This document shows, one piece after another, positions 3,368 to 27,513 of a DNA stretch of 28,640 bases; positions within the stretch are counted from its first letter, which is position 1, and every line of letters begins with the position of its first letter. Location of the stretch: IMG/VR virus record IMGVR_UViG_3300045918_000450, positions 1 to 28,640 of that record; one strand, written 5' to 3'. The stretch comes from a virus. Under the pieces are notes generated by a model. The model was not told the origin of the DNA and searched no databases. It saw only the letters and a program-made list of their open reading frames with translations. A program made the translations under genes and the position numbers.

Positions 3368-6300
3368 TTTACCGTCCTAAAATTGCGGTTCTCTTTTGCC
3401 AAGAATTTGGTCAGATCATCCTTATGAATAAACTCGCCACCTTTGGTATTAATCACCACCGTACCACCTGAGGCTTGTTTTTGCTGTTGTTGGGCTTGGA
3501 TTAACGATTGTTGTGTCGCTAAGGCACTCGCAGCGGTCATTGCTAAACCAGCACCTGTATTACTGTTACTTGTCGCTTGCTCAGGTAAACCAACATTACC
3601 AATCCCGCCATTGGCAAAGAACTCACGCATCGGTGCGGCAATGGTCGCGGGTAAGATGGTTTCGTTTTTGTGGACTAAATTTAAGCGGTCGTTAGGCACA
3701 TCCCATTCGCCACCCGCCGACGATGAAATCATGCCACCAAACGCCATCACCCCAGCAAACGCAACCGCCGCTGCAATGGGAGCAATAACAGGCCCTACAT
3801 ACGGAATCCCGATCATTGCATCATAAGCACCCGCCGCTGCGTCCGCTGCTTTAGTGGTAATCTTGCTGGTCGCAGCGCTTGCCTCAACGGCTTTACTTTC
3901 AGCCGCTGCCACACCTTCCGCTGCAACTCGCGCCTGTGTCCCTACAATCGTAGCCCCTGTTTGCGTCGCTTCGCTAGTCGCCTTAATCGCACCTTTGGTG
4001 GTTTCCTTCGCGCCAAAACCCATCAACTCCCATAACCAATGCGCTGCCGAATCAATCGCCATATTCGCCAGTGACTGCGTATAGCTCAACACAATCGACT
4101 GAAACGCATTCTTCATGCCCTGTTTCAGCGTAGTCGTACCTTGCAAAATGCCTTGAATCGTTGAACCGAAGGCAGATTTAATCGGTGCAAACGCAGAGGT
4201 AAACATCGACTGATTATCAAGAGCCACTTTATGATTAATGGCTTTTAAATCTTGCGCGTGCTTTAGTCCTAGCTCTTTTTCCTTGCTTAAGGCTTTGGCT
4301 TTGCCAACCGTATCATCACTTTCTAATAAAGCAGATCTATCGCGCAGTGCTTTTAAGGCAATTTGATAGCGTTGGTTCTCAAAGTCTTTTTGCTTAGCTA
4401 ATAACTGAGCGTTGGTAATCGTCCCTATTGCTAGCTGTTGCTGAGCATCATCCTCTTGCATTTGCACTAGCGTGTTATCCATGGCTTCTTTTGAGCTAAG
4501 CTCTTCTTCCGCTAATGCCTTAGCCTCTGCTTTGGCTTTTTTGTCCTCATCCTGTTTCTTTTTAGCAGTTTCTCTGAGAATTTGCAGGTCTAAATCAGCG
4601 GATTTTTTCTTAAGTTCAGCAAGGGTTTTATCATCGCCTTTGTAATTAGCAATCACTGAATCCCAATAAGCTTTTTCTTGCTCTTTAGAAAATTCCTGCA
4701 ATAAATTCTTGCGTTCAAATGCCAGTTTTTGGGCAGTTAAATCGGCTTCAAAACGGCTCATGTCCGATACGTCACCACTTTTACCGCCTGGCGAATGACC
4801 GCCTTTACCTTTACCGCTACCGCCCGTTGGCGCATCAGGAATCGATTTTGAACCGCCTGTGCTACGTTTTTCAGGGCTACCTTTGCCAGTTGATTTAGAG
4901 CCACGACCACGCGCTATTTCGTCCTTAATCGTTGAGACAAACGCATTCTTACGTTCCTTAACTACATTGCTAACAGACTCTGCATACAGACCCACTTCTT
5001 TAGCTGCATTACCAACATAATCGGTTTTCATGCCCGAACGAAACGCTTCACCTATTGCCCCCTCTGAGGCTTGCCTACGCGCTTTATTTTCTGACTGATT
5101 GACATTAAGTTGCGAAACAAATGCCCCGCCTGAAAAGTCACCACCCAATGCGGCTTTAATCGAATTACCCGCCGCAACCGCTAAACTGACAGCATGATTC
5201 AAACTCATGCTAATTTTGTCAACGATTTGCGCCATAATCACGCCAATCGCTGAACTTAAGCCAACAAATGCACCTATCCCTGCATTAACAAAGTCTTTAA
5301 CCGTACCTAATGCGCTGTTTAAGGACTCTTTAAAGCTTTCCCACGTTTTGTCATTAACACCAATTAACGCTTTAAGATAGCCTTCAAAATCACTAAAAAA
5401 ACCAGCAACAAAATCGCCAAAATCACTAAAAATACCCGTGATAATCCGCCAGACTGCGCTTAGAATTTCTGATAGCGTGGTATTTTGGTCACCAAACTGA
5501 ATCACATTGTCTTTAACTTCGGCAAACTTAACGGCTAAAAATGCCAGTCCTGAAATCACCAGACCGATAGGACCGCCCACTAAACGCAGTAATACGCTAC
5601 CCAATGGAGCAAACACCGCTGAAAACTGCCCAACAAAAGTAGTCGCTAAAGCAAACCTGACACCAATAGCCGTTAATCCTGCCAATAACATCGCAATAGG
5701 ATTAGTTGCAATAGTCGTGATGACAGACCCTAATGTCCCTAAAACCGACACCAAGCCATTAAAACCAACTGTTAAAACCCCCGCCGCTAACACTGCCCGA
5801 CTAATCGCACCGCTAAAAGTCGTTGTTAAGACACCTGCAATCCCTGTAAAACCCGCTCGCATCACGGCAAAAACACTACCACCAGCCGCTGCTGCAATAA
5901 TGCGCATAGCCGATGAAAACGCCGCCGCAATCCCTGGCATTAAAGTAGTAATAGCGATATGCGTTAACCGAAACAAGCCACCTAGCGGAGCAATAATTGC
6001 CGCTATCCGAATAAAGCCAGCCAAATTAGGCGAATGCGCACTAATGCTAGTGATAGCGACTGTTAAACTTTTTAGCCCATCGATAACAAAAGTAATCGCG
6101 GGTAAAAATATTGCCGAGGTGGTAATAGCAAACACATCAAACGCACTTTTTAGTCGCTGTATTGCTGCGCTAACGGTTCTTTCACGCTCAGCAAAGGTAG
6201 CCGACATACTACCTGTAAAGATTTCATCCTTGCTTGCCAGCCCTGCTAAACGGTGATATTCATCTAAAGAGTTAATCAAATCGCCAATAGCAGCCGTATC

Positions 6301-8065: not shown

Positions 8066-8092
8066 CCGTGGGGGTGTTTCTATTTAAGGTAA

Positions 8093-8123
8093 ACCTGCGA
8101 GTTTTTTAAAACCTCGCAGCTCT
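8093..8123. repeat. Palindromic element, CCTGCGAGG type (copy 1)
   Basis: Inverted arms ACCTGCGAG and CTCGCAGCT around an AT-rich centre. This is a slightly decayed copy of the window's commonest palindrome, found also at 13331, 17853, 22181, 24778, 25925, 27048 and 27482. It lies just after the stop of the tail tube gene. Confidence 0.8.
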
Positions 8124-10021: not shown

Positions 10022-10690
10022 TTATCTATTTCGATTAGAGTGTATAAAACGGTCCTGTCCACGGCTGTTTTGCAAATCTAAATCCACCACCGCAGACGCG
10101 GCAACCAGCTTATTTTCCTTAATTCCTAACACACTGAAATACCGCGTCCGATAGTTTTTAGCTAAGCGGGCATAATCCGCTGATTGACTATTACGTTGAA
10201 TATGGTCAGCTTGGATGGTGCTATCACTGGCACTGGCATAATAAGAAGCCAGTTGATCGCAACACCACGCCGCTGCCCAACACGTTACCGCCTCTTGGTG
10301 ATACAGATTAATCGTATCAATTAGCGTAGTGACGGTATGCGGCAAGGTGTAGGTTAAGCGCACCGCATCAGTAGGAATAAACACAAACAATACGCTTAAC
10401 CCAGAAGGCTGTTGATACAAACAATAGCGTTCAGCATCCATCACATGAGGCGGAAAACCACCTAGTGGATATTCAATGCTGACAATGGAACTAAACTCTG
10501 CTACCCAATCTGTTGGTACTGGCAGATTCGATGTACCATTGCTGGCTAAATCCGTTACTTTTAACAGCGGAAAATCAGTTGAATAACGCACCACTGCCAA
10601 TTGAATCGCCTTGTCAATATCCGTTGTCGTAATGACATTGTTGTCATCACGCACTAGCCCCGTCAGTAATGCTTGATAATCGCTTAACAT
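10022..10690 (-). CDS. Head-tail connector (neck) protein
   Basis: A 222-residue protein starting MLSDYQALLTGLVRDDNNVITTTDID. The opening 'DYQALLTGLVRDD...ITTTDIDKAIQLAVVRYSTDFP' followed by a beta segment, and a helical C-terminal half with QEAVTCWAAAWCCDQLASYYA, is the pattern of phage adaptor proteins that join the portal ring to the tail. Its position just after the major capsid gene fits. CRISPR-like module B lies immediately upstream of its start codon (leader end at 10691), and no ribosome site is visible there, so the module may have displaced the native leader. Family not named with certainty. Confidence 0.65.
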   Translation of the reverse strand: MLSDYQALLTGLVRDDNNVITTTDIDKAIQLAVVRYSTDFPLLKVTDLASNGTSNLPVPTDWVAEFSSIVSIEYPLGGFPPHVMDAERYCLYQQPSGLSVLFVFIPTDAVRLTYTLPHTVTTLIDTINLYHQEAVTCWAAAWCCDQLASYYASASDSTIQADHIQRNSQSADYARLAKNYRTRYFSVLGIKENKLVAASAVVDLDLQNSRGQDRFIHSNRNR

Positions 10691-10762
10691 ATAATTTTTG
10701 GTAAAAATTCACAAAGTTACTTAAACTATTGAGGTGTTTAGTCTTATTTAACTAAGCACCTT
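10691..10762 (+). promoter_or_regulatory. CRISPR leader of array B
   Basis: AT-rich stretch before the first repeat of array B. It holds the box CTTAAACTATTGAGGTGT at 10720-10737, which differs by two bases from the box in leaders A and C and stands 43 nt before the first repeat. Read on the other strand the box contains CTCAATAGTTTA, close to the IHF consensus WATCAANNNNTTR. Confidence 0.7.
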
Positions 10763-10850
10763 GTTTACTGCCGCATAGGCAGCTTAGAAAACGATAATCA
10801 ATCACCGCACCACCATAGATATATTCACTGCCGAACAGGCAGCTTAATGA
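10763..10850 (+). CRISPR. Mini CRISPR array B, type I-F-like, two repeats and one spacer
   Basis: Repeat 1 at 10763-10790 and repeat 2 at 10823-10850, both 28 nt, flank one 32-nt spacer at 10791-10822. Both repeats keep the I-F hairpin, CTGCC and GGCAG as a 5-base stem, with loops GCATA and GAACA. The second repeat is degenerate at its end (TTAATGA instead of TTAGAAA), as usual for a terminal repeat. The spacer matches the phage's own major capsid gene end, 10917-10948, at 25 of 32 positions. A palindrome (GACTGCCAGTCC / GGACTGGCAGTC) follows the last repeat at once. No cas genes are near. Confidence 0.88.
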
Positions 10851-10889: not shown

Positions 10890-12911
10890 TTAAGGAACAA
10901 TCCCAGCGTAAAAGCCTCTGAAGTCAATCACCGCACCGCCATAGATGTGACGGATTTTGTAAATAATTTGGTCATTGCTAAACAAACTACCCTGAGTAGG
11001 TAAATCTTGAACAAACAGCTCAGGCTCTTCCGTGCCGTTATAAAAACCCAACTCAATCAGCGGTATTTCCATCTTGTCGGCGGTGGCAAACCAGTTATTA
11101 GTATCAGACCAATAATCAACAACGTGGACTTTGGGTTTCCGTGACTGCACAAACGATTCGTCTAAATTGGTGTTACGAACAAACAAATCAAACGCGGTTT
11201 CTTCCAATTCCGCAGGAACATACAAATGACGCAATACCAAACCTAGTTTTTTAGCACTGTTCAATTCTACTTGTTTCTTAACGGCTAACCGCGCTGCTGA
11301 AAAAGCCGCTGCACTGAGTGCTGCCGTGCCTAAATTGCCATGGATAGCATTAAACAACGTCACCGCGTCATACAGAGTCGGATTAGTGGCAATAAAATCC
11401 ATCACGAACTCATACAAGGTGCGTTTTGCCGCCACTGCCAACCGTTGTGGGACTTTACGAATCGCACCCACATCATCATTAGCAATGGTTTCAAGACTGA
11501 TGGTTTCTTTACCACCGCGTTTAGTGATGGCGTAAGTCGCTTTTTCATCACTGGGCGACGTGAGCGCGTTATAAGCACCGTTTTCAGCCACAGCAGGCAG
11601 GTTGCCATAACCACCCATACGAGTGCGTTCTTGCGTACGAAAGTTAGAGATAGGAACAACATCGACTAAATCCTGAAAATCGTTATAATTTTCCAGCGCG
11701 GCATAATCACGCACCATTGCCCGTGTAATCGAGTTACCCAAAATATTGCCAAAGGTAGCCGCTGAAATCGCTTCACGGAAATGGGCATCACTCCCCAACG
11801 CTTCACGCAAACGCTGTTCATTACAGTTTTGAATCAGACCCGTCACCCCTGTATCGCCTGTGACTTCGACATAACATTCACGAAATGATTTAGCCCGTTT
11901 AGCAGGATTAAAAAAATCATCAAACATGGTGGTGATTTTGTCAGCGCGGTCTGAACCCATTTCAATAACCACGTCACCCAAGCCTTTAACATGACCTGAT
12001 TCTGTCAGTTTTGATAGCATAGTACGCTCGGTATCAATCGCTTCGCGCACCGCTTTCATCGTTAAACTATCGGTAGCTTTAAACTGTTTTAACAGTTTTT
12101 CAGTCACAGGGGCAGGTAGGTTTGCTGCTGCTAATATCGAACTATGCTCTCGCGCTTCCCAATAACGCGCTCTTTTTCCGTCGTCAAGCGTTTCGTTATA
12201 AGCTGCTAACACCGCGACTGGGTCAGTGGTATCCAGACCTTTAGGCATATCCCCGTCATTGCCCACCTGAATAAATGCCAACATTAATTGTAATAAGTCC
12301 ATAGTCCCACCTTGATTTTGTGATTGTAGTACGGGTTGATTAGCATCAACCGCCTCGATTATTAGAGTACAAACCCTAGGTTTGTCTGAATCCGAAGGCA
12401 TCACTGCCTCGATTAAATTGATAAGCTGCCCACCCGCCCCTGGTTCGATAATCAAATCGACCGAATGCACTTTGACAAACTTAGTGGCTTCGCGAAGTTT
12501 GCCGCGCATTTGCGTTAGCCCATCGGCATCAATCGAAAAGCCGAATAGCTCGGTCATCCCGTTGTTGTAGGCTTCTTTGAGTTTGGCAACCACTTCACCT
12601 GCCGAAGCCAATAAAGTCAGTGTGGCTTGGATTTCACCACTGTCTTGACCATTGCCTTCAATAAAGCGCGGGTCTGATAATTGACCAATGAGCTGACTAA
12701 ATGATTTACCACCGCCGTGAATATGTTCCGCATCGGATTTAGAAAATACCCGCACCTTGTCAAACAACGGTACGGCTTCACGCAACACCCGATCAGGGTA
12801 AAAGTTGTTATTACCCGACTGACCCGCGCGAATAACCCGAATCAGATACTTCAAGCCCGTTTTACCGTCGCTATCGGCAACGGCTTCAATAAATGAATTA
12901 GACGTTGGCAT
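10890..12911 (-). CDS. Fused prohead protease / major capsid protein
   Basis: A 673-residue protein from an ATG at 12911 (MPTSNSFIEAVADSDGK); the longer reading from 12968 overlaps the gene before it. Residues 1 to about 180 look like a phage prohead protease: FYPDRVLREAVPLFDKVRVF, EHIHGGGKSFSQLIGQLSDPRF, then a long helical segment. From about residue 320 the sequence has the Mu-like major head pattern: EQRLREALGSDAHFREAISAATFGNILGNSITRAMVRDY and the end IYGGAVIDFRGFYAGIVP. In Mu, protease and capsid are separate genes; here they are joined, as in several Mu-like siphoviruses, so one protein cleaves itself during head maturation. A palindrome at 12366-12388 is translated in frame in the linker. 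The last codons are the target matched by the array B spacer. Confidence 0.88.
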   Translation of the reverse strand: MPTSNSFIEAVADSDGKTGLKYLIRVIRAGQSGNNNFYPDRVLREAVPLFDKVRVFSKSDAEHIHGGGKSFSQLIGQLSDPRFIEGNGQDSGEIQATLTLLASAGEVVAKLKEAYNNGMTELFGFSIDADGLTQMRGKLREATKFVKVHSVDLIIEPGAGGQLINLIEAVMPSDSDKPRVCTLIIEAVDANQPVLQSQNQGGTMDLLQLMLAFIQVGNDGDMPKGLDTTDPVAVLAAYNETLDDGKRARYWEAREHSSILAAANLPAPVTEKLLKQFKATDSLTMKAVREAIDTERTMLSKLTESGHVKGLGDVVIEMGSDRADKITTMFDDFFNPAKRAKSFRECYVEVTGDTGVTGLIQNCNEQRLREALGSDAHFREAISAATFGNILGNSITRAMVRDYAALENYNDFQDLVDVVPISNFRTQERTRMGGYGNLPAVAENGAYNALTSPSDEKATYAITKRGGKETISLETIANDDVGAIRKVPQRLAVAAKRTLYEFVMDFIATNPTLYDAVTLFNAIHGNLGTAALSAAAFSAARLAVKKQVELNSAKKLGLVLRHLYVPAELEETAFDLFVRNTNLDESFVQSRKPKVHVVDYWSDTNNWFATADKMEIPLIELGFYNGTEEPELFVQDLPTQGSLFSNDQIIYKIRHIYGGAVIDFRGFYAGIVP
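10917..10948 (-). other. Imperfect self-match of array B spacer in the capsid gene
   Basis: 32 bases in the C-terminal codons of the capsid gene match spacer B1 at 25 positions. Mismatches at spacer positions 1, 3, 4, 5, 7, 22 and 31; five lie in the seed. The two bases before the match on the spacer-like strand are CC (10915-10916), the standard I-F PAM. Of the changes, all but one pair are synonymous; one changes Phe to Tyr. Confidence 0.85.
12366..12388. repeat. Short palindrome translated in frame, ACAAACCCTAGGTTTGT
   Basis: Perfect short palindrome ACAAACCTAGGTTTGT-like, centred on CCCTAGG, lying inside the fused protease/capsid gene in the linker region (residues KPRVCTLIIEAV). A close copy, with GGAGTC added at its left, lies in the intergenic region 13370-13394. 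Confidence 0.7.
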
Positions 12912-13086
12912 CTTTTGCCACCGTGATTTTTTGACCAGCAACCGTGACCACGACCACAGTATTGCCATAATCTTTAAACGCTAAACACTCAGTGAGGTCT
13001 TTGCGAGCCAATAACGCCGCATCCGCTAAGGTCAACACCGCGAGCGTGGGTTTGGTTTCTTCTTTGGGTTTGGGTGATTCTGCCAT
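12898..13086 (-). CDS. Small capsid-region protein, unknown function
   Basis: A 62-residue protein starting MAESPKPKEETKPTLAVLTLADAA, from the ATG at 13086. It overlaps the start of the protease/capsid gene by 14 bases, so it is coupled to it. The N-terminus is Lys/Pro/Glu-rich and flexible; the rest is a small domain, LARKDLTECLAFKDYGNTVVVVTVAGQKITV. Short proteins of this shape are often seen just before Mu-like capsid genes. The function is unknown, perhaps a head decoration or scaffold component. Confidence 0.65.
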   Translation of the reverse strand: MAESPKPKEETKPTLAVLTLADAALLARKDLTECLAFKDYGNTVVVVTVAGQKITVAKDANV

Positions 13087-13396
13087 GACAGTTCCGAAGT
13101 AAGGACAAGTGGCAAAAGAATAAATCAGCAAGCACGGTAATACACCTAGGAATGCAGTCCTATGGTATTTTTAGAGGGAGGGCGTTCAAACCAAGCTTTG
13201 AACTTCAAATAAAGCCTTTAACTAACGATTAAAGGAAGTTTAACGGGGGTTTAACGGGGGTAAAAACAAAAATCTATGCCAGTGTAGCGCGTTGTCTTTA
13301 AAAATGCCTAAAAATAAAAATTATCAGCCAGACCTGCGAGGTTTTTAAAACCTCGCAGGTCTACGCGACTGGAGTCCAAACCCTAGGTTTGTACGA
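13087..13396. other. Gene-free stretch with four palindromic elements
   Basis: 310 bases without a credible gene. In order: an imperfect inverted repeat near 13144-13168 (ACCTAGGA ... TCCTATGGT) followed by TATTTTTA; GTTCAAACCAAGCTTTGAAC near 13173; an AT-rich tract with CTTTAA/TTAAAGG arms and GGGGG runs; a CCTGCGAGG element at 13331-13362; and GGAGTCCAAACCCTAGGTTTGTA at 13370. I see no RNA gene. It separates the gpG-like gene from the capsid block. Confidence 0.7.
13331..13362. repeat. Palindromic element, CCTGCGAGG type (copy 2)
   Basis: Perfect arms GACCTGCGAGGTTTT and AAAACCTCGCAGGTC around a short centre; the reference copy for this family in the window. Confidence 0.9.
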
Positions 13397-17824: not shown

Positions 17825-17852
17825 GTTCACTGCCGCACAGGTAGCTTATAAA
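17825..17852 (+). CRISPR. CRISPR locus C: leader plus one repeat, no spacer
   Basis: A single 28-nt repeat with the I-F pattern; one stem base differs (GGTAG, giving a G-U pair). Its end reads CTTATAAA, the same as the last repeat of array A, and the same palindrome (GACCTG...CAGGTCT) follows directly. This looks like an array that lost its spacers by recombination between first and last repeat, or one that never gained any. Confidence 0.75.
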
Positions 17853-17884
17853 GACCTGAGAGGTTTTAAAAACCTCGCAGGTCT
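17853..17884. repeat. Palindromic element, CCTGCGAGG type (copy 3)
   Basis: Starts at the first base after the CRISPR repeat of locus C. One base is changed in the left arm (GACCTGAGAGG). It may end a short transcript. Confidence 0.8.
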
Positions 17885-19531: not shown

Positions 19532-19559
19532 AACCTACTGCCGCATAGGCAGCTTTTAT
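19532..19559 (+). repeat. Solo CRISPR-like repeat D
   Basis: The core ACTGCCGCATAGGCAGCTT (19 bases) is identical to the first repeat of array B, with intact stem CTGCC/GGCAG; the flanks have decayed. No leader or second repeat is visible. A palindrome, GGAGTTAAAAACTCATGAGTTTTGA, follows immediately (19562), as in the other three loci. Confidence 0.65.
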
Positions 19560-21013: not shown

Positions 21014-21426
21014 TACGTTAATTCAAAAATATCCAGATTGCTGTAATACACTTCGCGTGATTTTTGCTTAATGCGCCGCACATTGCGTTCTGTCGTATTA
21101 AATTTGCGAGCCACAACGGCATTACTAAATCCTGCTTTAACATCCGCCATGATTAACAGCTTTTTTTGTTGGCTGATGATATTAGCACATAAATCAATCT
21201 CTAACGGTGTTCCGCCATAATAGGCACATAATTTTTCTAACGACCCCAGAGTAATCACCGCTGTCAGTTTATGGTTCGGCTTGGCTTTTTTAGGAATGTT
21301 TAAATGCGTACCCCCGTAATGATGTACCAATGCCATTGCCGCTTCAAAACCCACTACCTGTATCAGTTCAGCGGTGCGCTTTGGTAATAACGCATAAATA
21401 TCATCCGTAGCGGAATCAAAACTCAT
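21013..21426 (-). CDS. mor: Mor transcription activator family protein
   Basis: A 137-residue protein. The centre and C-terminus show the Mor/C family design: helical dimerisation part (TAELIQVVGFEAAMALVHHYGGTHLNIPKK), then a helix-turn-helix near the end, AGFSNAVVARKFNTTERNVRRIKQK. In Mu, Mor switches on the middle promoter; in Mu-like siphoviruses that lack C, this protein likely drives the late operon directly. It is followed on the minus strand by the strong terminator. Its start codon overlaps the gemA stop inside a palindrome (AAAACTCATGAGTTTTGACTCC), so the palindrome encodes both ends. Confidence 0.88.
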   Translation of the reverse strand: MSFDSATDDIYALLPKRTAELIQVVGFEAAMALVHHYGGTHLNIPKKAKPNHKLTAVITLGSLEKLCAYYGGTPLEIDLCANIISQQKKLLIMADVKAGFSNAVVARKFNTTERNVRRIKQKSREVYYSNLDIFELT

Positions 21427-21847
21427 GAGTTTTGACTCCTTCCACTGCCTTAACCAACGCAGTAATCACCCCGCGTAGTTCAAACGGTGTGCAAAATGTC
21501 AGGTTCGCTTTTTTGTACATCCGTTTTGCAATCGCATGAGCATAAGACCACGGCTTTTTCTGTACTGTCAGCAAGGCTTCAATCTTTTGTAACTGCCCAT
21601 TCTGTGCGGTGTTGTGCGGCTTGCCTTCGTGCAGCGTTTTACCTAACTGTGACTGCAAGTAAGCAATCACAGTTAGCCGTTGCGCTCTATTCAGTTTTGC
21701 CGAAGAATCCAGCCCAGTTTGATTAACTAACATGACTCGATAAGTTTCATCATCCAGCGTTAAATTCTTTTTCAACACATGAATCTTAGCGAGTTCTTTG
21801 TTTCTGTACGGATCGGGATTACCGTTAATCACTTTCTTGATTGCCAT
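21416..21847 (-). CDS. gemA: GemA-like regulatory protein (DUF1018, Mu gp16-like)
   Basis: A 143-residue protein with the DUF1018 pattern: RNKELAKIHVLKKNLTLDDETYRVMLVNQTGLDSSAKLNRAQRLTVIAYLQSQLG, then a second domain with ALLTVQKKPWSYAHAIAKRMYKK...FCTPFELRGVITAL. In Mu, gp16/GemA modulates host functions including DNA supercoiling control. It overlaps the Mor start, suggesting coupling. No ribosome site is visible before the ATG at 21847, which lies next to the leader of CRISPR array A. Its bases 21617-21648 match spacer A3 imperfectly. Confidence 0.88.
   Translation of the reverse strand: MAIKKVINGNPDPYRNKELAKIHVLKKNLTLDDETYRVMLVNQTGLDSSAKLNRAQRLTVIAYLQSQLGKTLHEGKPHNTAQNGQLQKIEALLTVQKKPWSYAHAIAKRMYKKANLTFCTPFELRGVITALVKAVEGVKTHEF
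21617..21648 (-). other. Imperfect self-match of array A spacer 3 in gemA
   Basis: Spacer A3 matches 28 of 32 bases on the coding strand, residues QLGKTLHEGKP. Mismatches at spacer positions 2, 3, 5 and 15; three in the seed. The two bases before the match read AC, not the CC expected for a I-F PAM. Spacer codons read Gln-Leu-Gly-Lys-Thr-Met, so only Leu to Met changes the protein. Confidence 0.9.
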
Positions 21848-21972
21848 TATATTTTTACATTAAAAAGTAGTAATAAAATCAATAAGTTGCTTAAGCGATT
21901 TTTTCATTGAAAAAAAACAGGAAAAATAGCTTAAACTATTGATGCGTTTAATCTTTTTCGATTAAGCGTCGC
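21848..21972 (+). promoter_or_regulatory. CRISPR leader of array A
   Basis: A 125-base AT-rich leader. It has the box CTTAAACTATTGATGCGT at 21930-21947, 43 nt before the first repeat and identical to leader C; reversed, it reads CATCAATAGTTTA, near the IHF consensus. A second site, AATCAATAAGTTG at 21877-21889, fits the IHF consensus WATCAANNNNTTR fully. Two IHF sites, near and far, are known for I-F leaders that support spacer uptake. A possible promoter is TTGAAA (21916) with TAAACT about 17-19 bases later. Confidence 0.7.
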
Positions 21973-22180
21973 GTTCACTGCCGCACAGGCAGCTTAGAAA
22001 TACTCGCGAATATTGCAGAGCCAATACGCTTGGTTCACTGCCGCACAGGCAGCTTAGAAAGCCAACGCTATCTTACAAGCCGCAATTACGGCGTTCACTG
22101 CCGCACAGGCAGCTTAGAAAAACTGGGTAAAACGATGCACGAAGGCAAGCCGGTTCACTGCCGCACAGGCAGCTTATAAA
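21973..22180 (+). CRISPR. Mini CRISPR array A, type I-F, four repeats and three spacers
   Basis: Repeats at 21973-22000, 22033-22060, 22093-22120 and 22153-22180, each 28 nt, with a strict 60-base period; spacers at 22001-22032, 22061-22092 and 22121-22152, each 32 nt. Repeats 1-3 are identical, start with GTTCACTGCCGC and end with GGCAGCTTAGAAA, which is the I-F class pattern; the last repeat ends CTTATAAA. The stem CTGCC/GGCAG with a five-base loop is the Cas6f (Csy4) substrate. 28/32 lengths are exactly those of I-F. It reads on the plus strand, opposite to the phage genes, between gemA and the DUF3164 gene. No cas gene in the window, so processing must rely on the host. Confidence 0.97.
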
Positions 22181-22212
22181 GACCTGCGAGGTTTTAAAAA
22201 CCTCGCAGGTCT
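22181..22212. repeat. Palindromic element, CCTGCGAGG type (copy 4), capping array A
   Basis: Begins at the first base after the last repeat of array A. Perfect arms GACCTGCGAGGTTTT / AAACCTCGCAGGTC, followed by TCTTTGTTAT on the plus strand, which could make it a weak terminator for the array transcript. Confidence 0.85.
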
Positions 22213-22262
22213 TTGTTATAACTTCGCTAAATCTAAACTAACTAATCCCCTAGCCGACTTTT

Positions 22263-24760: not shown

Positions 24761-25304
24761 GACCCACCTCCTGATCTAAGACCTGCGAGGTTTTTAAAAC
24801 CTCGCAGGTCTTGTTATCAGATAAGGTTTTATTCAATGACGGATTCACCCGCATTGCCGCCATCGCCGCCTCATGACATGAGCTGGTAATAAGCTGTATA
24901 GCGTCGTTATGCTGTTGGATATGCGCTAAAAACGCCCCCGTCGATGAAAAAACCCAGCTTGAACAAACCTGTTTATCATAAATACCTGCAGTTTTTGCCT
25001 TAGCTTTTGAGCCATAGCATTTTTCCCATGACTTTAGTTCTTTAGCAGAAAAAATAGACTTGAGTTTCCAACAATAGAACTTCCGACAAATCTCAGACAT
25101 TTGCTCAAGGTCTGTTTCCCGACCATAAAATAACCAATCACCTCTAAACAGGCTATTGACATAAACGGCAATTTTGACCTGCATACCGACTTGTACAGTA
25201 GCCGTCGTGATGTAATAGCCATCAATCAAAAAATAAGACCGATGACCTAGCTGTGGTAAGTCTTTTTTAAGCTCATCACGCTGTGCTTTGGTTAGCTTAG
25301 CCAT
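24753..25304 (-). CDS. Unrecognised early protein, 183 aa, ending in a translated palindrome
   Basis: From the ATG at 25304, MAKLTKAQRDELKKDLPQLGHRSYFLIDGYYI, followed by a beta segment (TTATVQVGMQVKIAVYVNSLFRGDWLFYG) and a helical, cysteine-containing part (EICRKFYCWKLKSIFSAKELKSWEKCYGSK). The last 25 residues include KTCEVLKTSQVLDQ, the translation of a CCTGCGAGG palindrome (24778-24812). It opens into the 137-aa gene with a short overlap. I recognise no family. Its position in the early block, before a replicative helicase, could point to a replication or anti-host role. Confidence 0.75.
   Translation of the reverse strand: MAKLTKAQRDELKKDLPQLGHRSYFLIDGYYITTATVQVGMQVKIAVYVNSLFRGDWLFYGRETDLEQMSEICRKFYCWKLKSIFSAKELKSWEKCYGSKAKAKTAGIYDKQVCSSWVFSSTGAFLAHIQQHNDAIQLITSSCHEAAMAAMRVNPSLNKTLSDNKTCEVLKTSQVLDQEVGHG
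24778..24812. repeat. Palindromic element, CCTGCGAGG type (copy 5), translated in frame
   Basis: AAGACCTGCGAGGTTTTTAA and its inverse, inside the 3' end of the 183-aa gene, adding the residues TCEVLKTSQVL. Confidence 0.9.
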
Positions 25305-25877: not shown

Positions 25878-26295
25878 CACACACCTCCGCTGCCCGTAAC
25901 TCATCACCCACATCACAGCGATTCAAGACCTGCGAGGTTTTTAAAACCTCGCAGCTCTCAACAACAAACGGCAACAAGGTTTTGCTATTGGCATCAAACA
26001 CCCCATCTTTACGCATAATCGGATTCTTAGCCCCTAGATCATTCACCAGCCGATACTGATACACGCCGTTGCTAGTCGGCTTACCATCATCTAACCGCTC
26101 ACGCGACAATACCCCTACCCGTGTTAAAAAGGTCAAATACTGCCCTAAATTCCGATCTGCGTGTTTGCGTGAGCCGTCATTCAATACCATCAACAAATCC
26201 GCTAAGGTCACGGTTTTATTCTTGCGAATAATCCACCACGCTCTAGACCGCAATCCATAACTGCGTTGTCGTTTCATACCACGTTTACCCGCCAT
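25864..26295 (-). CDS. Winged-helix-like early protein
   Basis: 143 residues from the ATG at 26295 (MAGKRGMKRQRSYGLRSRAWWIIRKNKTVTLADLLMVLNDGSRKHADRNLGQYLTFLTRVGVLSRERLD). The pattern RSRAWWIIR....TLADLL...NDGS....N...YL..L...GVL, followed by 'GVYQYRLVNDLGAKNPIMRKDGVFDAN', is the winged-helix family that stands directly after the B ATPase in many Mu-like phages. The C-terminal 30 residues contain CEVLKTSQVL, a translated CCTGCGAGG palindrome (25925-25957). Probably a DNA-binding regulator. Confidence 0.8.
   Translation of the reverse strand: MAGKRGMKRQRSYGLRSRAWWIIRKNKTVTLADLLMVLNDGSRKHADRNLGQYLTFLTRVGVLSRERLDDGKPTSNGVYQYRLVNDLGAKNPIMRKDGVFDANSKTLLPFVVESCEVLKTSQVLNRCDVGDELRAAEVCDESA
25925..25957. 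repeat. Palindromic element, CCTGCGAGG type (copy 6), translated in frame
   Basis: Inside the 3' end of the winged-helix gene, adding SCEVLKTSQVLN, the same peptide as in the 183-aa protein. Confidence 0.9.
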
Positions 26296-27022: not shown

Positions 27023-27047
27023 GATTAAATTCCTACTGTTTTGTGAA

Positions 27048-27079
27048 GACCTGCGAGGTTTTAAAAACCTCGCTGGTCT
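27048..27079. repeat. Palindromic element, CCTGCGAGG type (copy 7)
   Basis: In the 178-base gap between the 82-aa gene and B. One base differs in the right arm (CGCTGG). Confidence 0.85.
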
Positions 27080-27449: not shown

Positions 27450-27481
27450 ACCTCACCCCTCATTAAATTAACTACCCCCAA

Positions 27482-27513
27482 GACCTGCGAGGTTTTAAAA
27501 ACCGCGTAGATCT
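27482..27513. repeat. Palindromic element, CCTGCGAGG type (copy 8)
   Basis: A decayed copy (right arm ACCGCGTAGATCT) directly after the transposase stop at 27517. Confidence 0.8.

Follow-up and report, generated by a model that had tools for sequence, protein, structure and literature searches.

Mini-CRISPR arrays carried by a Mu-like phage probably borrow the type I-F Cas proteins of the host to destroy related phages, as judged from the sequences of the arrays, of their targets and of the phage's own alleles. The window, i.e. the whole stretch of DNA that was analysed, is a 28.6 kb virus record of IMG/VR with genes for GemA, Mor, Gp27, a MuB-like ATPase, a Mu transposase C-terminal domain, a large terminase and a capsid protein, and a virion morphogenesis gene. 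It contains three CRISPR loci (A, B and C), all on the plus strand, with most of the genes running in the opposite direction, and no cas genes were seen among the window proteins scanned. The leaders of the three loci are of one kind; the third locus had been missed in an earlier, sequence-only reading of this DNA. The evidence consists of the arrays themselves, their host-type leader and repeat, mismatches that spare the carrier, and near-perfect or perfect targets with a CC PAM in sister phages, most of the targeted phages being without an array. Array A and its surroundings comprise the following features.

21863 to 21972, plus strand: leader of array A, host-type I-F, by alignment to the chromosomal leader of the Methylococcales genome G165
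21973 to 22180, plus strand: CRISPR mini-array A, with 28-nt repeats, a 60-nt period and three spacers
21973 to 22000, 22033 to 22060, 22093 to 22120 and 22153 to 22180, plus strand: repeats of array A, identical in sequence to the G165 repeat
22001 to 22032, plus strand: spacer A1 (newest), with a weak likeness to the tape-measure C-terminus
22061 to 22092, plus strand: spacer A2 of array A
22121 to 22152, plus strand: spacer A3 (oldest), AACTGGGTAAAACGATGCACGAAGGCAAGCCG, third in this four-repeat I-F-type array
21416 to 21847, minus strand: gemA (PF06252, E = 4e-18), which adjoins array A and is the self homologue of the A3 target
21617 to 21648, minus strand: near-match of A3 inside gemA, 28/32, with mismatches at spacer positions 2, 3, 5 and 15 and PAM AC

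The loci display the guide features of type I-F systems, namely a 28-nt repeat, 32-nt spacers and a 5' CC PAM before the best targets, and the repeat of array A folds into the 5-bp I-F hairpin. G165 was found by a leader search in genomes from the order of a Methylococcales MAG; its chromosomal I-F array contains 169 repeats, identical to that of the phage, and is preceded by a complete cas operon (genes for Cas1, Cas2-3, Csy1, Csy2, Csy3 and Csy4). The leader of array A matches the G165 leader at 94 of 107 aligned bases (88%), scoring 73 where the best of 300 shuffles reached 20, and in another phage, L030, 89 of 106 leader bases agree with it; the leaders of B and C are less like the chromosomal leader, yet lie above all shuffles. 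The identical repeat, the 88% leader identity and the complete cas operon make it very probable that host Cas proteins process the phage arrays, which look competent for host processing and possibly for adaptation. Spacer 55 of the G165 array matches the phage L010 at 29/32 positions with a CCC PAM, supporting both the host range and the PAM. The host assignment is thus a candidate one, based on the leader, the repeat and this one spacer match rather than on a lysogen. A scan for a second I-F repeat variant, CTAAGAAA, returned one viral contig only, and a scan for sigma-70-like promoters at array A found none.

The alignment of A3 with the phage's own gemA is ungapped, and the bases upstream of the self site are CAC, giving a PAM of AC instead of CC. 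The sequence-only reading, which had reported this match with its four mismatches and altered PAM, was exact to the base, and its account of the codons also holds (CAA/CAG for Gln, CTG/TTA for Leu with two changes, and ATG/CTG for Met/Leu). In 300 shuffles of A3 the best match to the window had ten mismatches, as compared with four for the real spacer. That reading had further predicted a gemA homologue in a related phage matching the spacer at 32/32 and preceded by CC, which was not found: among six gemA homologues in viral contigs, the best foreign target is that of L010, with 27/32 matches, perfect seed positions 1–10 and a CCC PAM, and its mismatches (11, 14, 26, 29 and 32) all fall at third codon positions. 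It had also held that the idea would fail if no gemA homologue lay closer to the spacer than the self copy. By raw identity the self copy, at 28/32, is indeed the closest known, but by seed and PAM L010 is the better target.

A scan for the gemA epitope in 2.9 million IMG/VR viral contigs returned only L007 (the self allele), L010 and L011, with no 32/32 match, so the exact donor of A3 appears to be unsampled. Searches for A3 gave only partial chance matches of 17–20 nt among INPHARED phages, mostly in Vibrio and Aeromonas phages, and, across 311 genomes from the host's order, none with three or fewer mismatches. A prophage source for A3 was not found, since gemA in sequenced genomes never exceeded about 53% identity. 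Judging by these matches, the source of A3 is a related phage's gemA allele. Spacers A1 and A2 had no matches among INPHARED phages, and their candidate targets in related loci have at least ten mismatches, inside the shuffle range. A1 resembles a tape-measure C-terminal motif (window positions 3622–3653), with 10–11 mismatches in the window and in L269, which is too weak to call.

Array B provides a second near-match to the phage's own genome, which the sequence-only reading had missed and which lies 67 bp from the array at the end of the capsid gene.

10653 to 10762, plus strand: diverged leader of array B, sharing 70/101 aligned bases with the host leader (score 21; best of the shuffles 16)
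10763 to 10850, plus strand: CRISPR mini-array B, with one spacer between repeats 10763 to 10790 and 10823 to 10850 (the second decayed)
10791 to 10822, plus strand: spacer B1, from a sister-phage major capsid gene, 31/32 in L260 and 29/32 in L030, both with CCC
10890 to 12968, minus strand: major capsid protein gene (PF25209, E = 1.3e-39), which adjoins array B
10917 to 10948, plus strand: capsid-gene site that nearly matches B1, 25/32, with mismatches at 1, 3, 4, 5, 7, 22 and 31 and the CC PAM kept

Five of the seven mismatches at the self site (1, 3, 4, 5 and 7) are in the seed, while the PAM lies within a Gly codon and hence CC is unchanged; the self copy is GACTTCAGA and the target GATTATCGT, a difference that includes Tyr to Phe and CGT to AGA. 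Shuffled versions of B1 never came below ten mismatches in the window. The best target, with a perfect seed, is in the sister phage L260, whose synteny with the window comes with 66–82% nucleotide identity; no repeat was found across the whole L260 contig, and the gemA gene is absent from the L260 record. The IMG dataset that contains L260 is also the source of L055, a contig with almost the same sequence as the window. Further targets with a CC PAM are present in L059 (28/32) and L054 (26/32) besides L030, and neither a leader nor an array was found downstream of the capsid gene in L030, L054 or L059. No matches to B1 were found among INPHARED phages. On these alignments, B1 makes a stronger case than A3 in the same phage.

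The matches of A3 and B1 to the carrier's own genes (28/32 and 25/32) could also be read as self-regulation, in which imperfectly bound crRNAs would repress gemA and the capsid gene but not cut them. This is very improbable, because the mismatches are located in the seed and PAM, where binding fails first, and sister phages keep both intact. As the window is a metagenomic record, an assembly artefact was also considered, in which fragments of host arrays were joined to phage contigs and the matches arose by chance. It is largely refuted and its probability is close to negligible: independent contigs agree with the window, L031/L053 for array B and L007, over 149/149 bases, for locus C and the first part of array A, and the matches far exceed those of shuffled spacers.

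Alleles with a single repeat occur as well. In L055, with flanks like those of the window, exactly one 60-bp repeat-spacer unit is missing from array B and the leader is kept together with one hybrid repeat (L055 positions 1120–1240 against window positions 10763–10850), as expected if recombination between the repeats led to spacer loss, with assembly collapse as the alternative. Locus C has a comparable organisation, and a solitary repeat remnant is found elsewhere.

17825 to 17852, plus strand: locus C, leader and single repeat followed directly by a palindrome; candidate spacer-less array or RNA anti-CRISPR
17853 to 17884, no strand assigned: palindrome after the locus C repeat, predicted to fold into a stable stem
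22181 to 22213, no strand assigned: palindrome directly 3' of the last repeat of array A, common to locus C and other intergenic sites
19534 to 19555, plus strand: repeat remnant without a leader, upstream of the terminase gene (repeat family D5)

The palindromic repeat, GACCTGCGAGGTTTTTAAAACCTCGCAGGTC, is present at about eight intergenic places in the window (8090–8123, 13330–13362, 17852–17884, 22180–22213, 24779–24811, 25926–25958, 27047–27079 and 27481–27513). It directly follows arrays A and C, and three copies are found in the Methylococcales MAG G033.

Solitary repeat units with a promoter have been reported as an RNA anti-CRISPR arrangement (PMC10651486), and the repeats of this phage might likewise be RNA anti-CRISPRs (Racr) obstructing Cas6f and Cas7f of the host, with the spacers being incidental. 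Locus C resembles those units in combining a leader, a single repeat and a stable palindrome, and, compared with RacrIF1 (Camara-Wilpert 2023, PMC10651486), it shares a putative promoter region, a single I-F repeat and a stem-loop; single-repeat alleles are also found at array sites in L055 and in another phage contig, L188. Unlike RacrIF1, however, arrays A and B hold spacers with targets, and the sister-phage sites matched by A3 and B1 have kept the CC PAM and the seed, neither of which a pure decoy would need. The Racr explanation is therefore unlikely for the loci as a whole, although decoy and targeting may coexist at different loci. The single-repeat alleles form a link between mini-arrays and the solitary repeats known from RNA anti-CRISPRs.

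A scan of IMG/VR for the repeat gave 41 stretches, among which three further phages (L030, G007 and L041) show the same pattern of a spacer that matches a neighbouring gene. In L030 an array of its own, with a leader of the same kind, separates the morphogenesis gene from its neighbour, at a site that is empty in the window and in L054. Spacer 1 of this array has a 26/32 match, with PAM TA, in the phage's own morphogenesis gene. Spacer 2 matches L054 where the gene on the opposite flank begins, with a CC PAM, one mismatch and a one-base indel, the seed being altered at the L030 self site. The G007 spacer matches the phage's own major tail protein gene at 28/32 (mismatches 3, 6, 8 and 9; PAM CG), and an intact site was found in none of the array-less relatives L159–L163. 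The first repeat of this array (L024/L158) starts at the stop codon of the targeted gene.

In L041, spacer 2 matches the lysin-like gene just downstream at 31/32 with PAM CA (ACA), and the homologous gene of L190, a contig of the same metagenome, at 32/32 with a CC PAM (ACC). At the same site, the relative L189 contains a one-spacer array with a different spacer (4830–4917), and L188 contains a single repeat (4853) together with the CA PAM. Across the related phages L187 (904–1051), L188 and L189, this one site holds zero, one or two spacers of differing content, with the same target gene adjoining. For many of the remaining spacers in viral contigs with these repeats, the contig of origin contains no near match, and adjacency is thus not universal.

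In all five clear self-matches the target of the array is a neighbouring gene, at distances of 67–544 bp, the genes being gemA, the major capsid gene, the virion morphogenesis gene, the major tail protein gene and the lysin-like gene. The differences that spare the carrier are in the seed and/or PAM for A3, B1, L030 spacer 1 and the G007 spacer, and in the PAM for L041 spacer 2. Positions 1–8 contain 13 of 22 mismatches in these self-matches and 1 of 16 in the foreign homologues, several of which belong to one spacer (Fisher p = 0.0016). The combined p for proximity is 8e-5 with five spacers, or 1.3e-3 with one, least favourable, spacer per phage, in a test that assumes uniform placement and includes few phages. 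Both statistics are supporting rather than decisive. The sequence-only reading had proposed superinfection exclusion between Mu-like phages aimed at a conserved early gene. It is supported in part: the arrays hold spacers directed at the corresponding genes of related phages, and the carrier's own copies differ in seed and PAM, the part left unsupported being the perfect CC-preceded gemA target for A3; the aim at an early gene is too narrow, as the common feature is that the target gene adjoins the array.

Taken together, the proposed mechanism would begin with processing of the array transcript by host Cas6f and Cascade, after which the crRNA would guide Cas2-3 to a sister-phage gene with matching seed and CC PAM. 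The resident phage would escape since its own allele differs in seed, PAM or both. In phages that recombine, the array and the immune allele would have to stay linked, as a separated array would cut its own recombinant carrier. The position of the array beside its target gene most likely reflects selection for this linkage, because in mosaic phages an array that comes apart from the immune allele meets a susceptible allele and kills the carrier.

The same proximity is compatible with RNA-guided homing. The array would then be a mobile cassette: the host I-F system would break the sister phage's allele beside the empty site, and repair of the break would copy the array and immune allele from the co-infecting phage, much as a free-standing homing endonuclease might act with marker exclusion. 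The array sites are intergenic, beside the target gene, furnished with their own leader, and empty in sisters (L030, L054 and L059 for array B; the window and L054 for the L030 array). In both arrays that mix spacers of known and unknown targets the adjacent match belongs to the oldest spacer (A3 and L041 spacer 2), and the two spacers of L030 match both flanks of its array. Set against this, the DNA degradation by Cas2-3 is processive and would more readily destroy the target than leave it to clean repair, and simple linkage accounts for the proximity without any conversion. Homing is an attractive but tentative extension, and the further proposal that an array and its recoded neighbour gene form a natural gene-drive-like unit, spreading among co-infecting Mu-like phages via the host type I-F system, is doubtful. 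The matched alleles and the candidate host make linkage (poison and antidote) and homing directly testable against each other.

Virus-borne mini-arrays are already known. The Sulfolobales portogloboviruses SPV1 and SPV2 carry mini-CRISPR arrays (Medvedeva 2019, PMC6858448), which are alike in being small, cas-less and intergenic, with host-like leader and repeat, spacers against a sibling virus, an altered own copy and nearby targets. The arrays described here have the corresponding features, i.e. one to a few spacers without cas genes, a host-like repeat, matches to related viruses and a mutated own copy, but they are of type I-F, occur in a bacterial Mu-like phage at three loci in one genome, and have spacer-lost and array-less alleles. 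As cited in PMC6858448 and PMC7099407, the phage mini-arrays of Faure et al. 2019 also target adjacent genes of related phages and spare the carrier. Leaders of phage mini-arrays are held to differ from host leaders (PMC7099407), and in these citing accounts the arrays of Faure et al. 2019 are without host leaders, which was taken to preclude adaptation, whereas the leader of array A is 88% identical to a chromosomal I-F leader. This suggests that host adaptation machinery can load phage arrays, which was formerly thought to be precluded.

Free-standing phage homing endonucleases and competition by an intron endonuclease (PMC11620839) are similar in that a sequence-specific cutter beside its target attacks the competitor allele and the own allele is resistant; the arrays, by contrast, would be RNA-guided and use host enzymes. 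What is added here is the occurrence of three array loci in a single phage, a leader of host type, alleles with an empty site or with one repeat, and target adjacency in every clear self-match. It has been noted that virus-borne spacers target regions near their arrays, with the cause and consequences called unclear (Medvedeva 2019, PMC6858448). Bacterial phages whose arrays have I-F repeats now show this proximity too. Among them, matched alleles with the array, with a single repeat and with an empty site are seen, and a genome with a complete I-F system is the candidate host. Homing, if true, would account for the proximity of virus-borne spacers to their targets.
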